The notes under the pieces are model-generated. The model had not been told where the DNA came from. It worked only from the letters and a program-made list of their open reading frames with translations, and searched no databases. From assembly GCA_937926445.1 (NCBI GenBank), contig CALBAK010000089.1, forward strand, positions 1-57,043: a stretch of 57,043 nucleotides of DNA, written 5' to 3'. Origin of the DNA: an uncultured Alphaproteobacteria bacterium. GTDB lineage: Bacteria > Pseudomonadota > Alphaproteobacteria > Geminicoccales > Geminicoccaceae. Position numbers and translations under genes: made by a program. Below are positions 44,418-51,673 of this stretch, in pieces. Numbering within the stretch: the stretch's first letter is position 1; each line of letters opens with the position of its first letter.

Positions 44418-44520
44418 GCGCGGGGGCGATCGTCGGCCGGCCACCCCTGGACGCGGCGGGCGCCGCGGACGATCTCTGAGCCGGCCGCCGGACGACGGCG
44501 GTCGCAGAGGAGCGTCGGAT

Positions 44521-45090
44521 ATGTTCGCTCGCGGCCTCGGCCTCGCCGCGGCAGCTCTCGCGGTACTGGGCGGCGCCGGTGCAGGCGCCGAGCCGCCCGC
44601 CTGGACGGTCGATCCGGCGAACAGCCGGCTCGCCTTCACCGCGCTTCAGGGGGCGCAGGTGATCGAGGGCAGCTTCGCCCGCTGGACGGCCGCCATCCGC
44701 TTCGACCCCGCCGATCTCGCGGACTCGGTCGTGGAAGTCGCGGTCGACCCGACGAGCGTCGTCACGGGCGATCCCAACCGCGACAAGCAGGCGCAGGCAG
44801 CGGAGTTCTTCGACAGCACGCGGCACCGCGAGGCGCGGTATCGTACGCTCGCTTTCGAGGCGAAGGGCGACGGGCTCTACGAGGTCGTCGCCGAACTGTC
44901 GCTCAAGGGCGTCACACGTCCGATCCGCCATCCCGCACGTATCAACGTTGCGGACGGGCGAGCGGTGGCCTCGGGCGAGGTGGTGCTGCGCCGGCGCGAT
45001 TTCGGCTTCGGATCGGGTGTGTTCGACAGTGAGCAGATCCTCGGTCCCGAGATCCGGGTCCGCTTCCTGGTCCAGGCGAGCCGGCCGTGA
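44521..45090 (+). CDS. YceI-family periplasmic lipocalin-like protein
   Basis: 189 residues: signal peptide (LGLAAAALAVLGGAGAGAE), then the YceI beta-barrel (WTVDPANSRLAFTALQGAQV, FDSTRHREARYRTLAFEAKG, LSLKGVTRPIRHPARI, RRRDFGFGSGVF). Family members bind polyisoprenoid chains such as ubiquinone-8. GAGGAG precedes the ATG. The stop overlaps the GTG of the cytochrome b561 gene (GTGA), a common pairing that points to quinone-linked periplasmic redox chemistry. Confidence 0.9.
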   Translation: MFARGLGLAAAALAVLGGAGAGAEPPAWTVDPANSRLAFTALQGAQVIEGSFARWTAAIRFDPADLADSVVEVAVDPTSVVTGDPNRDKQAQAAEFFDSTRHREARYRTLAFEAKGDGLYEVVAELSLKGVTRPIRHPARINVADGRAVASGEVVLRRRDFGFGSGVFDSEQILGPEIRVRFLVQASRP

Positions 45091-45647
45091 GCTGGCGCAG
45101 CGGCCCGAACGGTTGGGGCCGAGCGATCCGGCTCCTGCACTGGGCCACGGCGCTGCTGGTGCTCGGTCAGTGGCTGCTCGGCCGCACCATGACGAGCCTG
45201 GGCCCCGAGGCGCTGGCAGAGAAATTCGTCCTCTACCAGCGGCACAAATCGCTCGGTATGCTGATCCTACTGCTCACCATCCTGCGGCTCGGCTGGCGGC
45301 TCGTCGACCGAGCCCGGCCCGAGCATCCGCCGAGCGTGCCGGGCTGGCAACGGTGGGCCGCGTCCACGAGCCACGCGCTCCTCTACCTGCTGCTGCTCGC
45401 GATGCCGGTGACGGGCTTCCTCGCGGCCGCCGCCTCGCCGCTCGGCATCCCGACGGTGCTCTTCGGGTTTCTTCCGGTGCCGCACCCGATCGGCCCGGAC
45501 CCGGCCCTCGAGGCGCTGCTGCTGCGGGCCCATCGGCTGCAGGGCTGGGCGCTCGCGGGTCTCTCTGCACTGCACGTAGCGGCGGCCCTCAAGCACCATT
45601 GGGTCGACCGGGATCCGGTGTTGCGGCGGATGGTGCGGGGTGGCTGA
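45087..45647 (+). CDS. Cytochrome b561-family membrane protein
   Basis: 186 residues with four membrane helices. Heme-ligand histidines are in RLLHWATALLVLGQW (helix 1), QRHKSLGMLILLL (helix 2), STSHALLYLLLL (helix 3) and LRAHRLQGWALAGLSALHVA (helix 4). Proteins of this type move electrons between quinol and periplasmic acceptors. GTG start coupled to the preceding YceI gene. Substrate unknown; the YceI partners suggest a quinone carrier. Confidence 0.9.
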   Translation: MSWRSGPNGWGRAIRLLHWATALLVLGQWLLGRTMTSLGPEALAEKFVLYQRHKSLGMLILLLTILRLGWRLVDRARPEHPPSVPGWQRWAASTSHALLYLLLLAMPVTGFLAAAASPLGIPTVLFGFLPVPHPIGPDPALEALLLRAHRLQGWALAGLSALHVAAALKHHWVDRDPVLRRMVRGG

Positions 45648-45806: not shown

Positions 45807-46940
45807 ATGAACGCGGTCCAGCGAGCTTCCCGGGCCCGGGTGGTCGCGGCCGAACGGGTGCTGTCCGGCGGCGGCTCCTGTCTTCTGCACGGCGAAGCCG
45901 GGGCGATCCTGGTCCGTGCTGTCGAGCCGCTCGACGAGGCCGCACTCGCCGACTGGCTCGCCGAGAATGCGCGCTGCACGCTCCTGATCACCGGAACGCG
46001 CGCCCAGGCGCTCGGTCTCGCCGTGCCTGCGGCGAGCTGCGCCGCGCTCGAGCTCGGCCGGCCGATCGCCGCGGCCGCGCTGCTCGCCTTGGTCGGCCCC
46101 GGTCTGCCGGTCGACGGCGGACGGGGACTGCCCGAGGGCTGCACGCTGCGGCTCGGCAACCGCATCGAAGAGGCTGCGGTGGACCTCGCCAAGCGGGCCG
46201 GGCTCATGCCGGCGGTGCTCGCGCGGCCCGTGGGTCCCGAGGCGCGCGGGGACGTCAGCGTCGAGGCCGAGGCGATCCTCGCCCGCTCGCGCGACGATCT
46301 CGCCACGCTGCGCCCCGTGGTCGAGGCGCGGCTGCCGATCGCCGCCACCGAGCGGGGCCGGCTCGTCCTGTTCCGCTCGGCTTCGGGGGCGGTCGAACAT
46401 CTGGCCTTCCTCGTGGGCGACCCGGCGGGCGTTCCCGCCCCGCTCGTGCGGCTGCACTCCGAATGTTTCACGGGCGACGTGTTCGGCTCGCTGCGCTGCG
46501 ACTGCGGCGAGCAACTCGATGCGGCGCTCGCCCAGATGGCCGAGGAGGGGGCCGGCGTGCTCGTCTATCTGCGCCAGGAAGGGCGCGGTATCGGCCTCCT
46601 CAACAAGCTGCGGGCCTACCGGCTGCAGGACCAGGGCCTCGATACGGTCGATGCCAACACGCATCTGGGCTTCCTGCCCGACGAGCGCGACTATGCCTTC
46701 GCCGCCGCCATGTTGCGAATGCTCGGCATCGAGCGGCTGCGGTTGATCACCAACAATCCGGAAAAGCTCCACGCGCTCGCCCGACACGGTGTGAGCGTCG
46801 TCGAGCGCGTGCCTTCGAGCGTGCCCGCCAACCAGCACAATCTCTTCTACCTCGAGACCAAGGCCCGCCGCAGCGGCCATCTCTTGCGGGCGCTGGGCTC
46901 CGGCATGGGCGGGGTTCCCGTCGGCCGCGGCAGAGGCTGA
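45807..46940 (+). CDS. ribA: GTP cyclohydrolase II with N-terminal extension
   Basis: 377 residues. The C-terminal GCHII domain (about 190-370) has all key motifs: the zinc site [20 protein letters not shown], the [18 protein letters not shown] loop, and [11 protein letters not shown]. It opens GTP to 2,5-diamino-6-ribosylamino-pyrimidinone 5'-phosphate with loss of formate. The N-terminal 180 residues are not a functional RibB domain: they lack its acidic metal loop. Neighbours (RibD-type reductase, PTPS-like protein, glycosyl- and methyltransferase) suggest a dedicated pathway rather than riboflavin supply. ATG at 45807 chosen; the frame is open to 45705 with no better start. Confidence 0.9.
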
Positions 46941-46951
46941 GGAGATCCGCC

Positions 46952-47548
46952 ATGGCGCCCGTTCGCCCGCTCCACCTCCTGGCCGCCTCGGGAATTCTCC
47001 TGCTCGCGGGGGTCGAGCCGGTTTCGGCCGAGCCGCGCCGCTACCGGATCGACCCCGAGCATTTCGCGATCGGCTTCGAAGCGACCCACATCGGCTATTC
47101 GAGCGTTCTCGGTCAGTTCTTGAAGGCCGAGGGGCATTTCGTGTTCGACGAGACCACCCGCACTCTCCACGAGGTCGAGATCCGGGTCGACGCACGGAGC
47201 GTCTTCACCAATCACGAGGCTCGTGACGGCCATCTGCGGTCGGCCGACTTCCTGGACGCAGAGGCGCATCCGGCGATCGTCTTCCGGATGACCCGGGCGA
47301 TCCCGAAGAGCGAGACCACGGGCGTGGTCGAAGGCGATCTCACCTTCCGCGGCAAGACGCTGCCGCTCTCGGTCGAGGTGACGCTCAACAAGATCGGCAA
47401 GTATCCCTGGGGCGAGAACTGGGTCGTGGGTGTGAGTGCTCGGACGACCGTTCAACGCTCCCTCTGGGGCAGCACTTACGCGGTCGACAACGGCTGGGTT
47501 GCCGACTTCGTCCCGATCCGCGTCGAGCTCGAGGCGATCCGCGAGTGA
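46952..47548 (+). CDS. Second YceI-family periplasmic protein
   Basis: 198 residues: signal peptide (LLAASGILLLAGVEPVSAE) and YceI barrel (RIDPEHFAIGFEATHIGYSS, AEGHFVFDETT, LRSADFLDAEAHPAIVFRMT, GDLTFRGKTLPLSVEVTLNK, SARTTVQRSLWG). It is closer to the classical YceI pattern (HxxIxFEVxHxGxS-like opening) than the copy at 44521, so the two are not recent duplicates. 11 bases after ribA; its stop overlaps the next GTG (GTGA). Confidence 0.92.
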   Translation: MAPVRPLHLLAASGILLLAGVEPVSAEPRRYRIDPEHFAIGFEATHIGYSSVLGQFLKAEGHFVFDETTRTLHEVEIRVDARSVFTNHEARDGHLRSADFLDAEAHPAIVFRMTRAIPKSETTGVVEGDLTFRGKTLPLSVEVTLNKIGKYPWGENWVVGVSARTTVQRSLWGSTYAVDNGWVADFVPIRVELEAIRE

Positions 47549-49185
47549 ACGGCGCGTCGGCCCCGATCGCCGCGGTTCGAACCAGAAGCGGCGAGGCGCG
47601 CTTCGCGCGGGCCTGGGAGCGGCTCCTCGCCTGCGCGCACGAGGGCGCCGATCCGGCCGAGCTGCCGCTCGACGGGCTGGGGCCAGACCAGCAGCGGCTG
47701 TTGGCCGCCTATCGCGAGCTTCTCGCTCCCTCCCCGGACGGGATCCGGGTGGTGGCGCATCTGGGGCAGAGCCTCGACGGCCGGATCGCGACCGAGCCCG
47801 GCCATTCGAGTCACGTCACCGGCGAGGCCGATTTCGTCCACATGCACCGGCTGCGGGCGCTCTCGGACGCCGTGCTCGTGGGTGCAGGAACCGTCGCGCA
47901 CGACGATCCGCGGCTCACCGTCCGGCTCGTGCCCGGGCCGAGCCCCTTGCGCGTGATCCTCGATCCCGATCGCCGGCTCGGCCCCGACTACCGGGTGTTC
48001 CGGGAGCGGCCGCCGCCCACGCTCCTGCTCTGCCGCGCCGACCGGCAGGATGCCGCGCGGCTCGGCGAGGCCGAGATCCTGGGACTGCCGGTCGAGGACG
48101 GGACGGTGCAGCCGCGGCGCGTGCTCGATGCGCTGCGCGCGCGGGGCGTCCGGCGGCTCTTCGTCGAGGGCGGTGGGGTGACCGTCTCCCGCTTCCTCGC
48201 CGCCGGTTGTCTCGACCTCCTCCATCTCTGCGTCGCCCCGGTCATCATCGGCTCGGGCCGCGACGCGCTCTGCCTGCCGGCGATCGCGCGGATGGACCAG
48301 GCGATCCGCCTCGCCCCCGAGGTCCTGCCGCTCGGCGGCGACTGGCTGTTCCTCTGCCGCCTGAGGCGCGCGCCCCTGGCCCCGCGGCAGACGCAGGAGG
48401 TCGCGATGGCCCACGCGGCAACCGCAGCGGCCGGTCGCGATCAGCTGCAGCCGCTCCTGGCGCCATGAGGCGACGGCGCTCGCCCGCTCGGGGGCGATCG
48501 CGGCTGCGGCCGCGGCCCAGCCTTCGACGAGCGCCGCCTGGAAGGCCCGATCTTCGGGCCCGGCCGTCCAGTCGGAGCGCTCGAGCCGCGGCCGGTCGCC
48601 CGCAGCGTCGAGCGACCTCGCCAGGGCGAAGGCCGCCTCGGGCCCGAGCGCCGGGCCGAATCCCTTGTCGGTCCGCTGGTGGCGGTTGACGAGGTCGATC
48701 ACCGCACCGTCGAGCGGGTGCGGCGGCTCGAGGACGACCCGGCCGTCGTAGGTGAGCACGGCGAGGAGTGCGAGGTCGCGCTCGAGCACGATCCGCACGA
48801 GCCGGTCGAGCCACGCGGCCGACACGAGATCGAGAAGTGCCGAGCAGGTGACGAGATCGACCGGTTCCGCGAGCGCCGCTTCGAGCTCCGCCACGAGATC
48901 GGCCCGGCGATAGGCCGCCGCGATCCTGTCGCCACGGGGAAGTCGGGGCTCGCCCGCCGCGATCAGAGCGGGGTCGAGCTCGACGAGGGTCCAACACTGG
49001 GCACCGGGCAGACGTGGGGCGAGGTGGCGCAGATTGGCCCCCGTGCCGGCGCCGAGATCGACGATGCGGAGAGGCTCTCCCCGGCCTTCGGCCCAGCGAG
49101 CGAGCTCTTCCTCGAGCACACGAGCCCGCGCGACCCCGTCGAAGGGAGCGCGCAGCGCGAGCCAATCGGCGGAGAAGCCGCTCAC
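47476..49185 (-). CDS. SAM-dependent methyltransferase with run-on reading frame
   Basis: Residues 1-270 form a class I methyltransferase: motif I IVDLGAGTGANLRHLAPRLP near 42, TLVELDPALIAAGEPRL, DLVTCSALLDLVSAAWLDRL, then a C-terminal cap ending at GHRDLLRLP. Homologues of this kind normally end there, at about 48380. Here no stop follows and the frame continues for about 300 residues antisense to the whole RibD-type gene, with the composition of a shadow frame. So the translated product may carry a long unstructured tail, or the stop was lost. The ATG overlaps the glycosyltransferase stop (ATGA). Substrate unknown; context suggests methylation of a pterin-like glycoside. Confidence 0.75.
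   Translation of the reverse strand: MSGFSADWLALRAPFDGVARARVLEEELARWAEGRGEPLRIVDLGAGTGANLRHLAPRLPGAQCWTLVELDPALIAAGEPRLPRGDRIAAAYRRADLVAELEAALAEPVDLVTCSALLDLVSAAWLDRLVRIVLERDLALLAVLTYDGRVVLEPPHPLDGAVIDLVNRHQRTDKGFGPALGPEAAFALARSLDAAGDRPRLERSDWTAGPEDRAFQAALVEGWAAAAAAIAPERASAVASWRQERLQLIATGRCGCRVGHRDLLRLPRGQGRAPQAAEEQPVAAERQDLGGEADRLVHPRDRRQAERVAARADDDRGDAEMEEVETTGGEEAGDGHPTALDEEPPDAPRAQRIEHAPRLHRPVLDRQSQDLGLAEPRGILPVGAAEQERGRRPLPEHPVVGAEPAIGIEDHAQGARPGHEPDGEPRIVVRDGSCTHEHGVRERPQPVHVDEIGLAGDVTRMAGLGRDPAVEALPQMRHHPDPVRGGSEKLAIGGQQPLLVWPQPVERQLGRIGALVRAGEEPLPGPREARLAASGSNRGDRGRRAVHSRIASSSTRIGTKSATQPLSTA
47545..48468 (+). CDS. RibD C-terminal-type reductase
   Basis: 307 residues with the dihydrofolate-reductase-like fold of RibD reductases: VVAHLGQSLDGRIATEPGHS near residue 72, AVLVGAGTVAHDDPRLTVR near 108, RVILDPDRRLG and RRLFVEGGGVTVSRFLAAG near 205, CVAPVIIGSG near 232. 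No deaminase domain is fused. It should reduce a ribosylamino-pyrimidine or a related pteridine precursor with NADPH. The functional fold ends near residue 275; the remaining tail lies opposite the methyltransferase frame. GTG start coupled to the YceI gene. Confidence 0.88.
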   Translation: MNGASAPIAAVRTRSGEARFARAWERLLACAHEGADPAELPLDGLGPDQQRLLAAYRELLAPSPDGIRVVAHLGQSLDGRIATEPGHSSHVTGEADFVHMHRLRALSDAVLVGAGTVAHDDPRLTVRLVPGPSPLRVILDPDRRLGPDYRVFRERPPPTLLLCRADRQDAARLGEAEILGLPVEDGTVQPRRVLDALRARGVRRLFVEGGGVTVSRFLAAGCLDLLHLCVAPVIIGSGRDALCLPAIARMDQAIRLAPEVLPLGGDWLFLCRLRRAPLAPRQTQEVAMAHAATAAAGRDQLQPLLAP

Positions 49186-50258
49186 GGGTCCAAGGCGGCG
49201 CGCAGGAAGGCTTCGGCGCGCTCGGCCTGGCGGGGCCAGCTCGGCAGCCCGGCCCGGGCCGCGATCGCACCCGCCCGCAGCCGGGCGCGCGAGCCCGGAT
49301 CACCGATCGCCCGGGCGAGGGCTTTGGCGAGGGCGGCTTCGTCTTCGGGCGGCACGAGGAGGGCGGCCTCGGCCGGCAGCCAGTCGGCGACCGCCCCGCC
49401 GGCCGCGGCCAGGATCGGCAAACCGCGGGCGAGGGCTTCGGCGAGCGCCATGCCGTAGCCCTCGTAGCCCGAGGCCGAAACGAACAGATCGGCCCGGTCG
49501 AAGGCGGCCTCGAGCGCTTCGCCGGCGAGCTCGCCCGAGAGCACGACCCGATCGTGAAGGCCCGTCTCGGCGATGGCAGCGCGCAGTGCGGCCGCCGCCT
49601 CGGCCGAACGGTCCAGGGCCCCCACGATCTCGAGCCGCCAGGGAAGCGCGCGAAGCCCGCCGAGCAGCCGCACGAGCCGGTCGAGGCGCTTTCTCGGGAT
49701 CACCGAGCCCACCGCCAGGAGCCGCACTCCCGGTCCGCTGGAGCCCCGGGCGAGCGGCGCGGGGTCGGTCCCGGGCTCGATCACCCCGATCCGCTCCGGG
49801 GCGACCCCGAACTCGGTCGCGAGCGTTCGTGCCGTCGTGGTCGAGGTGCAGAGGATCCGCCGCGGCCAGCGCAGCGCCGCCCGCTCGCTCTCGACGAGTC
49901 GGGCCGCGGTCGCCGGATCGAGCCCCTGCTCGTAGGCCAAGGGGTGGTGGACGAGCCCCAGGAGCCGCAGCCGGCGGCTCTCGCGCTCGGCCGCCTCGGG
50001 AAGTACACCCAGGGCGAGCCCGTCCACGAGGAGGAGCGTGCCGTCGGGCAGCGCCGCGAAGGCGGCCTCGCTCGCCGCCCGCACGGCGGCGTCCGGAAAG
50101 GGGAAGCCGTCCGGCAGCCTCAGCCAATCGACCCGCCAGCCGCGCCCGCGCAGCCCCTCGGCGAGCCTGCGATCGTAGATGGTGCCGCCCGTGCGCAGCT
50201 CCGGATCGCAGGGCACGGCCAGGACGAGGCAGCGATCCGCCGGCGCGGGTCGCGTCAA
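49182..50258 (-). CDS. Group 1 (GT4-like) glycosyltransferase
   Basis: 358 residues with a GT-B fold. The C-terminal donor domain has LAVGSVIPRKRLDRLVRLLG near residue 195 and the E-x7-E motif in SGYEGYGMALAEALARGLPI near 280. The N-terminal half contains VPCDPELRTGGTIYDRRLAE and VHHPLAYEQGL. I start it at a TTG overlapping the stop of the PTPS-like gene (TTGA); no better start exists. Placement between the PTPS-like and methyltransferase genes suggests that it glycosylates a pteridine or pyrimidine product. Confidence 0.87.
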   Translation of the reverse strand: MTRPAPADRCLVLAVPCDPELRTGGTIYDRRLAEGLRGRGWRVDWLRLPDGFPFPDAAVRAASEAAFAALPDGTLLLVDGLALGVLPEAAERESRRLRLLGLVHHPLAYEQGLDPATAARLVESERAALRWPRRILCTSTTTARTLATEFGVAPERIGVIEPGTDPAPLARGSSGPGVRLLAVGSVIPRKRLDRLVRLLGGLRALPWRLEIVGALDRSAEAAAALRAAIAETGLHDRVVLSGELAGEALEAAFDRADLFVSASGYEGYGMALAEALARGLPILAAAGGAVADWLPAEAALLVPPEDEAALAKALARAIGDPGSRARLRAGAIAARAGLPSWPRQAERAEAFLRAALDP

Positions 50259-50656
50259 GGCAACGGGCCCTCGAAGGCCGCCCAGGCCACGTCGCTCTCG
50301 GCGAGCTCGACCTCGAGGCTCACGAGCCCTCCGGCGTGCGGCCCGAGCCGGCCCTCGCGGATCGCGGCGCGGATCGTCTCCCATATCCAGCGCGCGAGGT
50401 ACTCCGTCGTGGTGTTGACGCCCGCGAATTCGGGCATCTCGTCGAGATTGCGGAAGGCGATCGCCCGCAGGGTCTCGGCCAGGACCTCGTGGGCTCGGCC
50501 GATGTCGACGACGATGCCGTCCGGGTCGAGCTCGGGCCTGCGGAACTCGACGTCGACGAGGTAAGTGGCACCGTGCAGCCGCTGCGCCGGCCCGAACACC
50601 TCGCCTCGAAAACTGTGGGCGATCATCACCCGATCGCGGACCCGGACCTTGTACAC
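50255..50656 (-). CDS. 6-pyruvoyltetrahydropterin synthase-like protein with altered active site
   Basis: 133 residues of the PTPS/QueD T-fold. MIAHSFRGEVF holds the first zinc His. The usual HGH pair is reduced to LHGATY, so one zinc His is lost, and the catalytic Cys four residues before the first His of that motif (CxRLHGH in QueD) is Ala (AQRLHG). DPDGIVVDIGRAHEVL and FAGVNTTTEYLARWIWETI are conserved. It may bind a pterin without classical PTPS chemistry. Starts with GTG after GAAGGAGGG. Coupled to the glycosyltransferase. Confidence 0.85.
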   Translation of the reverse strand: MYKVRVRDRVMIAHSFRGEVFGPAQRLHGATYLVDVEFRRPELDPDGIVVDIGRAHEVLAETLRAIAFRNLDEMPEFAGVNTTTEYLARWIWETIRAAIREGRLGPHAGGLVSLEVELAESDVAWAAFEGPLP

Positions 50657-50668
50657 GCTCCCTCCTTC

Positions 50669-51673
50669 TCAGCCGCCGTCGCTCCGGCGGTAGTCGATAC
50701 GGATGCAGCCGCGGCGCGGTTCGCGCAGGAGCTCGGGCAGCCGCGCGGGCGCGGCCTCGAACGGCACGAGCTCGTCGAGCAGTGCCTCGAATGCCGGGTC
50801 GGCCAACAGCTCGAGCGCCTTGGCGAGCCGGCGCCGATGCGGCCAGCGCGGCCGCATCGCGGCGGCCACCGCGCCCACCTGGGAGGAGACGAGCCGCAGG
50901 CGCCGGCTGTGGAACGCCCCGCCGAGCGGCACCGCGGCCGATGCCGCCCCGTACCAGGAGAGGACGAGCACGCAGGCCTCCTCGCCCACGGCCTCGAGCG
51001 CAACCGCGAGCGCCTCGGGCCTTCCCGTGGCCTCGATCGCGACATCCTGCTCGCCCGGCGCCGCCTCGGGAAGGGCGAAGGCGCAGCCCAGTGCCGAGGC
51101 CGTGGCGGCAGCCGCCGGATCGCGATCGACGAGAGTGACCTCCGCTCCGGGCAGCCGGGCCGCGAGCCGAGCAGCGCAGGCGCCGACCACGCCGGCCCCG
51201 AGCACGAGGATCCGCATGCCCGGCAGAGCCGGCGCGTCCCAGAGCGCGTTCAGAGCCGTCTCGAGATTGGCGGCGAGCACCGCGCGCTCGACCGGTACGC
51301 CCTCGGGGACCGGCAGGACCGATTCGGCCGGGACCACGAAGCCGCTCTGATGCGGATGCAGGCAGAAGACGGTGCGGCCCAGGAGCTCGCTCGGGCCCGC
51401 TTCGACCACGCCCACGGCGCAATAGCCGTACTTGACGGGGAACGGGAAGGCGCCCGCCTGATGCGGGCAGCGCATCCGCGCCCGCTCGGAGGCCGGCACG
51501 CGACCCGCGGCCACGAGCGCCTCGGTGCCGCGGCTGACGCCCGAGAGGAGGGTGCGCACGCGCACCTCGCCCGGCCCCGGCTCGCGGAGGCTCTCCTCGA
51601 GGAGGGCGGCGGCGAAGGGGCGCGTCCACCAGAGCGCGCGGGCGGTGCGGGCGGCGGGATCGGTTGCGGCCAT
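50669..51673 (-). CDS. Medium-chain (zinc-type fold) dehydrogenase, catalytic zinc site not conserved
   Basis: 334 residues of the MDR superfamily. The nucleotide-binding segment is ILVLGAGVVGACAARLAARL near residue 170. LLSGVSRGTEALV replaces the usual CGVCGSD, so the first catalytic zinc cysteine is missing, and no GHE motif follows; CPHQAGAFPFPVKYGY stands there instead. This is the pattern of MDR proteins found beside the PTPS-like genes in alphaproteobacteria. ATG at 51673 chosen; ATG at 51691 is possible. First gene of the four-gene minus-strand run with the PTPS-like protein, glycosyltransferase and methyltransferase. Confidence 0.83.
   Translation of the reverse strand: MAATDPAARTARALWWTRPFAAALLEESLREPGPGEVRVRTLLSGVSRGTEALVAAGRVPASERARMRCPHQAGAFPFPVKYGYCAVGVVEAGPSELLGRTVFCLHPHQSGFVVPAESVLPVPEGVPVERAVLAANLETALNALWDAPALPGMRILVLGAGVVGACAARLAARLPGAEVTLVDRDPAAAATASALGCAFALPEAAPGEQDVAIEATGRPEALAVALEAVGEEACVLVLSWYGAASAAVPLGGAFHSRRLRLVSSQVGAVAAAMRPRWPHRRRLAKALELLADPAFEALLDELVPFEAAPARLPELLREPRRGCIRIDYRRSDGG

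Follow-up and report, generated by a model that had tools for sequence, protein, structure and literature searches.

A widespread PTPS-IV gene cassette, found in an uncultured alphaproteobacterium, as a candidate pathway to a GTP-derived, glycosylated and methylated metabolite

Both the toxoflavin pathway and the cyanobacterial pterin glycosides combine a GTP-derived ring with methyl or glycosyl transfer; the pterin glycosides start with GTP cyclohydrolase I, and we know of no PTPS-IV or MDR-family dehydrogenase in the toxoflavin pathway. A third related route is the archaeal/fungal-type riboflavin branch, where reduction precedes deamination. Here we describe a locus at positions 45807-51673 of a 57,043-nucleotide stretch of DNA (hereafter the window; contig CALBAK010000089.1 of assembly GCA_937926445.1) from an uncultured member of the Geminicoccaceae (Alphaproteobacteria), which encodes a PTPS-IV protein. 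PTPS-IV is a subfamily of COG0720 with the signature FGPAQ, and its cassette neighbourhood is partly known in print since 2017, when a published passage noted PF00925 and PF01872 close to it (PMC5445326); a passage in a second paper places PTPS-IV in archaeal F420 synthesis, in a statement marked as unpublished (PMC5041015). The window shares both the signature and the PF00925/PF01872 neighbourhood. The relevant passages of the two papers name no MDR, type 4 glycosyltransferase (GT4), methyltransferase, CDP-alcohol phosphotransferase or flippase partners and no product, and we found no described product in the openly licensed literature.

We consider, with moderate confidence, that the window holds one member of a widespread, horizontally mobile PTPS-IV cassette that makes a GTP-derived, glycosylated and methylated metabolite, and that its GTP cyclohydrolase II (GCHII), RibA, does double duty in this lineage. 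Across the locus, a ribA-YceI-RibD_C run on the forward strand meets a methyltransferase-GT4-PTPS-like-MDR run on the reverse strand head-on. An earlier note, made from the letters alone, had read this arrangement as a pathway to a specialised metabolite derived from GTP; every gene that it named was recovered here, in two converging, coupled runs with a YceI gene inside. The protein that it called PTPS-like is not a canonical PTPS and belongs to the orphan PTPS-IV subfamily.

This assignment follows from the residues. In PTPS enzymes, a C-terminal Glu anchors the ring. All 20 aligned sequences (the window protein and 19 relatives) carry the FGPAQ signature unchanged. When the window protein was aligned by MAFFT with the QueD-like protein from a family member (G018), the catalytic Cys proved to be replaced by Ala24, the second, zinc-binding His of HGH by Ala30 (giving HGA), and the Asp-His pair was also replaced, so that the CxxxHGH motif and Asp-His pair of QueD and canonical PTPS are missing from the window protein; the C-terminal Glu120 was invariant. 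An AlphaFold model (pLDDT 92.9) matched 3d7j, the structure of Streptomyces coelicolor SCO6650, with a TM score of 0.96, and the sequence profile likewise found 3d7j nearest (E 6e-62), making this the closest solved structure by both sequence and fold. Viral structures compared with PTPS-IV gave distant QueD-like matches only. RefSeq names PTPS-IV 6-carboxytetrahydropterin synthase, with a queuosine Gene Ontology term, on 8 of 10 plasmid records (L247-L252, L254, L256), in proteins that lack the QueD catalytic residues.

To follow the cassette across genomes, we scanned genome contigs and obtained at least 593 confirmed PTPS-IV stretches among at least 598 pattern matches. The best 80 loci came from alpha-, beta- and gammaproteobacteria, actinobacteria, Gemmatimonadetes, Acidobacteria, Nannocystaceae, Kofleriaceae and a deltaproteobacterium, reaching far beyond the other alphaproteobacteria in which the earlier note mentioned similar gene sets. 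After removal of four duplicates, the comparison covered 98 loci, the window among them. Matches were taken at E ≤ 1e-6 within at most ~10 kb per side, and some stretches were shorter, so that all counts are lower bounds; partner families were set by Pfam on representatives. PTPS-IV was accompanied by MDR in 96 of 98 loci (96 within 6 kb), by the glycosyltransferase in 91 (90), the methyltransferase in 89 (88), the stand-alone RibD_C reductase (RibDC) in 74 (74) and RibA in 46 (45). The conserved linkage of the glycosyltransferase and PTPS-like genes with ribA, without which the earlier note would have given up its reading, was therefore borne out in part: the two genes are linked to each other almost always, and RibA was matched in 46 loci. 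The order MDR, PTPS-IV, glycosyltransferase, methyltransferase on one strand was kept in 81 of the 88 loci with enough flank (exceptions: L034, L046, L061, L071, L072, L113 and L121). This order is not due to chance, because so many loci keep it while flanking genes of the window were matched in only five or six of 98: malate synthase (6), the tRNA-editing gene (5) and DctP of the TRAP type (6) were rejected as members, as were the DNA ligase and MBL genes beyond the methyltransferase (2 and 3 loci).

The genes also co-occurred at the level of whole genomes. PTPS-IV was present in 22 of 40 genomes of relatives, the window's own included; RibDC (> 280 bits) was found in 17 of these 22 versus none of the other 18, and CDP-alcohol phosphotransferase (> 170 bits) in 12 versus none. 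Among 190 genomes of the class, for each of which a limited number of candidates was scored, 23 carried PTPS-IV, 21 cluster-type RibDC (20 of them with PTPS-IV) and 12 the phosphotransferase (11 with PTPS-IV). The sole exception to both associations, G170, is 74% complete and has RibDC and the phosphotransferase on one contig. Fisher's test gave p values of 7e-23, 7e-11, 3e-7 and 1e-4 for the four comparisons, with kinship ignored. RibA and RibDC were paired apart from the core in G013 and G014, and RibA was paired with the CDP-alcohol phosphotransferase in G008; such separate pairings point to function rather than accident. Finally, PTPS-IV occurred on 20 plasmid records. The ten that we read carried MDR, glycosyltransferase and methyltransferase on eight, RibDC on seven, the phosphotransferase on six, and RibA and a flippase-like gene on five each. 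Cassette plasmids belonged to Streptomyces fungicidicus, S. globisporus (unannotated), Thiodictyon, Methylosinus, Microbacterium (59 kb, mobilizable), Palleronia, Agrobacterium and Rhizobium.

From these data we infer reactions, step order and product as follows. Judging by family and residues, RibA would convert GTP to 2,5-diamino-6-ribosylamino-4(3H)-pyrimidinone 5′-phosphate, and RibD_C would reduce the ribosyl to a ribityl chain without prior deamination, keeping the 2-amino-4-oxo ring. The window reductase consists of PF01872 only and has no deaminase domain, setting it apart from bifunctional RibD, and it carries AHLGQSLDG where housekeeping RibD has KVAASLDG. Like the archaeal/fungal-type riboflavin branch, it is nearest to the diaminopyrimidine or RibD-type reductases 6p8c and 2azn (E 3.2e-40 and 1.2e-34 respectively); unlike that branch, the cassettes read contain no deaminase, lumazine synthase or riboflavin synthase. 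Because the set has no deaminase and combines a PTPS fold with the anchoring Glu, the substrate would keep its 2-amino group. PTPS-IV would then bind the ring via its conserved Glu and catalyse a reaction other than that of PTPS, be it ring closure, condensation or chemistry on the side chain, and the pterin ring might be rebuilt. The MDR protein, BchC-like at 45.2 bits and far below the cut-off, would oxidize a hydroxyl, GT4 would add a sugar, plausibly to the polyol at its phosphorylated end, and the methyltransferase, for which a sequence search of the PDB gave weak matches only, would add a methyl group. The GT4 profile was nearest to 6kih (Tll1590, which we take to be sucrose-phosphate synthase) and 7qsg (D-inositol 3-phosphate glycosyltransferase); glycosyltransferases of this kind use phosphorylated sugars or polyols as acceptors, which makes ribityl phosphate a plausible acceptor here. 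The product is most likely a 2-amino-retaining ribityl-pyrimidine or pteridine glycoside; a lipid-linked form is possible.

Membrane-type partners recur around the core and suggest a lipid-linked product in many lineages: 64 of the 98 loci have a CDP-alcohol phosphotransferase, in each case within 6 kb, and 36 a flippase-like LPG_synthase_TM protein (35 within 6 kb). As a complete alternative, which we regard as rather unlikely, the phosphotransferase would join the GTP-derived head to a lipid, followed by glycosylation and flippase-like transfer, with YceI and cytochrome b561 acting in the periplasm. YceI (28 loci) and a sulfatase-like protein (28 loci, 18 within 6 kb) would fit, as would the Agrobacterium and Rhizobium plasmid sets, which join sulfatase-like, flippase-like and phosphotransferase genes with cytochrome b561; the latter, confirmed by Pfam, lies inside three plasmid cassettes (Rhizobium, Agrobacterium and Thiodictyon). 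However, no cluster-type phosphotransferase was detected in the window's genus (best score in its own genome, 37.6 bits), and none was found in 34 of the 98 loci. The window matched none of the extra partner seeds, neither phosphotransferase nor flippase nor creatininase; for the flippase, the search covered the window. Furthermore, the name sulfatase is weak, with two representatives at 22.2 and 23.1 bits against a Pfam cut-off of 25 and two others without a match. The FkbM and OPG-type genes often or only lie at 6-10 kb: FkbM occurred in 26 loci (12 within 6 kb), MdoH-like proteins (labelled by a GT2 match and the record's annotation) in 18 (4) and MdoG in 18 (0). With all MdoG and 14 MdoH genes 6-10 kb away, we rejected both as members and treat them as context. 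OpgG/OpgH-like glucan synthesis genes recur at this distance from PTPS-IV in gammaproteobacteria and Gemmatimonadota (L065, L082, L104, L111, L120 and others). A more specific form of the lipid idea, which we hold to be unlikely, is that the cassette makes a new class of GTP-derived lipid, anchored in the membrane and used in redox reactions or signalling. A glycosylated, methylated 2-amino-ribityl-pyrimidine or pterin head would be attached by the phosphotransferase and flipped to the outside; YceI would carry it and cytochrome b561 serve it, with the window's lineage using a reduced form.

Alternatively, ribA and the RibD-type reductase could be relocated housekeeping genes for riboflavin supply only, and the glycosyltransferase, methyltransferase, PTPS-like and MDR genes an unrelated set, e.g. 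for an envelope glycan. What lends substance to this idea is the window's own genome, which encodes two PF00925 proteins. In the window RibA, three zinc Cys, the Arg and the equivalent of Escherichia coli Tyr105 are all present. The other protein is a fusion with RibB, encoded between the ribE and ribH genes, in which the three zinc Cys, the Arg and the Tyr are all missing; it matches RibBX, which a passage of PMC10012899 describes as RibB joined to a GCHII-like domain that lacks the zinc and ring-opening residues. The housekeeping cluster that the earlier note had not seen was found elsewhere in the genome (G000:C28), where ribD, ribE, the RibBX-type fusion, ribH and nusB lie together (ribE, ribH and nusB being named from sequence, with no family search); the note's statement that other riboflavin genes are missing holds for the locus but not for the genome. 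The note would also have taken a ribA that is the only GCHII of its genome as a refutation, and this is in effect the case here, as the window copy is the only one found with catalytic residues. For that reason the window RibA probably also feeds riboflavin. The same situation was met in Endozoicomonas (G048), whose other GCHII copy lacks catalytic residues, and many PTPS-IV loci have no detected RibA or RibDC. We nevertheless find riboflavin supply alone improbable. The housekeeping cluster already has a complete RibD, with deaminase and reductase parts read from its sequence, and RibDC is almost restricted to PTPS-IV genomes. In nine of ten other genomes with a cluster RibA, whose positions were matched by hand to the genomic GCHII copies, a further GCHII with catalytic residues is encoded elsewhere (Halomonas and relatives, three; Actinoplanes, two; Actinomadura, two; Methyloversatilis; an acidobacterium), so that the cluster copy looks dedicated there. 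Moreover, plasmids carry RibA (5 of 10) and RibDC (7 of 10) together with the core. Cluster RibA thus looks dedicated in most genomes checked and likely does double duty in the window's lineage. The earlier note's specialised metabolite gains from the conserved linkage, the RibDC/PTPS-IV association and these nine genomes, and loses in that the window RibA is probably shared with riboflavin. Another member of the family, whose genome is complete (G006, locus L158), encodes one PF00925 protein only, of the RibBX type and without catalytic residues. Variovorax and Derxia (L257, L258, L259; G050, G051, G056) have no ordinary RibA and a low-scoring GCHII type of ~400 amino acids; we rejected the idea that they lack any catalytic GCHII, since these copies keep the zinc Cys, Arg and Tyr, and this type may be their GTP-opening enzyme.

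RibA sequences also differ at the Tyr switch position. In 2006, Spoonamore reportedly found that Met120 in SCO6655 of S. coelicolor leaves the formyl group on the product. All 51 cluster RibAs (46 loci and five plasmids) keep the Cys and the Arg, and at the switch position 46 have Tyr, two Met, two His and one Cys, the latter five all actinobacterial; the two Met proteins, which have this residue in common with SCO6655, come from two Streptomyces plasmid clusters. Unlike SCO6655, the window RibA keeps Tyr and is predicted to give the deformylated product. Of the 98 loci, 35 had a creatininase-family gene within 6 kb of PTPS-IV, and such a gene accompanied five of five non-Tyr RibAs versus 22 of 46 with Tyr; a strict rule linking creatininase to loss of the switch residue was rejected because of these 22. 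A passage of PMC9478397 describes BrbF of Sinorhizobium meliloti as a creatininase-family formamidase that removes the formyl group from the GCHII product, and the paper reports that two distant homologues failed to complement. By analogy, the cassette creatininase could deformylate the GCHII product, and clusters with a non-Tyr RibA may open GTP with two enzymes, GCHII and creatininase. No creatininase match was present in the window, to which this search was confined. In favour of the earlier note's reading, a passage on a 2010 S. coelicolor model lists SCO6655 among genes whose expression is opposed to the predicted riboflavin flux, although its paralogue SCO2687 is listed likewise (PMC2853524).

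Several observations weigh against the proposed PTPS-IV cassette pathway. The window RibA probably serves more than the cassette. No RibA was detected in 52 of the 98 loci and no RibDC in 24, so that their linkage to the core is partial, though some loci are short. Cluster-type RibDC was missing from 5 of 22 and 3 of 23 PTPS-IV genomes in the two surveys, some incomplete but G017 and G217 complete, and two Streptomyces plasmids carry PTPS-IV without the cassette (L248:10001-10426, L252:9001-9399). The window RibD_C scored 114.3 bits against the archaeal equivalog TIGR01508, short of its 186.45 cut-off. Finally, the best 80 loci are those closest to the window's family and leave remote members unsampled.

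A pathway that salvages or repairs damaged flavins or pterins, in place of synthesis, would be compatible with oxidoreductases and a ring-binding PTPS fold but is very unlikely, as many clusters have an extra enzyme that opens GTP, an entry step of de novo synthesis. A deazaflavin F420 or queuosine pathway, for which the unpublished statement in PMC5041015 and the RefSeq name might speak, is scarcely credible and was rejected: the F420 ligase PF01996 occurred in 5 of 30 PTPS-IV genomes and not in the window's own, a misfit for these bacteria, while the QueD catalytic residues are lost and the window protein is the only PTPS-family match in its genome.

The layout of the locus is given below. 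Coupling overlaps were read from the sequence, with start codons chosen by us: YceI/RibD and glycosyltransferase/methyltransferase overlap by four bases each (GTGA), PTPS/glycosyltransferase by four (TTGA), and 12 bases separate PTPS and MDR. The methyltransferase lacks the stop found in relatives (~274 amino acids), leaving a 569-amino-acid frame open to 47476 and a 3′ end antisense to the RibD gene; this is either a real stop loss or an assembly error. Upstream of ribA lies a pair of YceI and cytochrome b561 genes (44512-45647). The genus or family of the window accounts for most loci that have cytochrome b561 within 6 kb of PTPS-IV.

Table 1. Genes of the PTPS-IV locus and its possible additional members, with positions in the window.
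Feature	Position	Strand	Remark
ribA, GTP cyclohydrolase II, N-terminal extension	45807-46940	+	zinc Cys (three), Arg and Tyr105 equivalent present
YceI-family protein	46952-47548	+	recurrent partner, 28 of 98 loci, 26 within 6 kb
stand-alone RibD_C reductase, PF01872 only	47545-48468	+	nearest solved structures 6p8c, 2azn
class I S-adenosylmethionine (SAM) methyltransferase	48363-49185	-	homology ends at ~48363, frame open to 47476
GT4 glycosyltransferase	49182-50258	-	nearest solved relatives 6kih, 7qsg
PTPS-IV protein	50255-50656	-	FGPAQ signature; fold of 3d7j
MDR-family dehydrogenase	50669-51673	-	distantly BchC-like, low score
second YceI gene, possible member	44512-45090	+	adjoins ribA in same-genus loci
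cytochrome b561, possible member	45087-45647	+	10 of 98 loci, 8 within 6 kb

The proposed pathway would join several orphan threads, namely PTPS-IV, the structure 3d7j, solved but without an assigned function, and the stand-alone RibD reductase, and with them the GCHII paralogue of Streptomyces that is said to retain the formyl group. With PTPS-IV in at least 593 genome stretches and the gene set conserved in loci and on plasmids, the cassette would, if this reading is true, stand for a common GTP-derived metabolite of wide interest.

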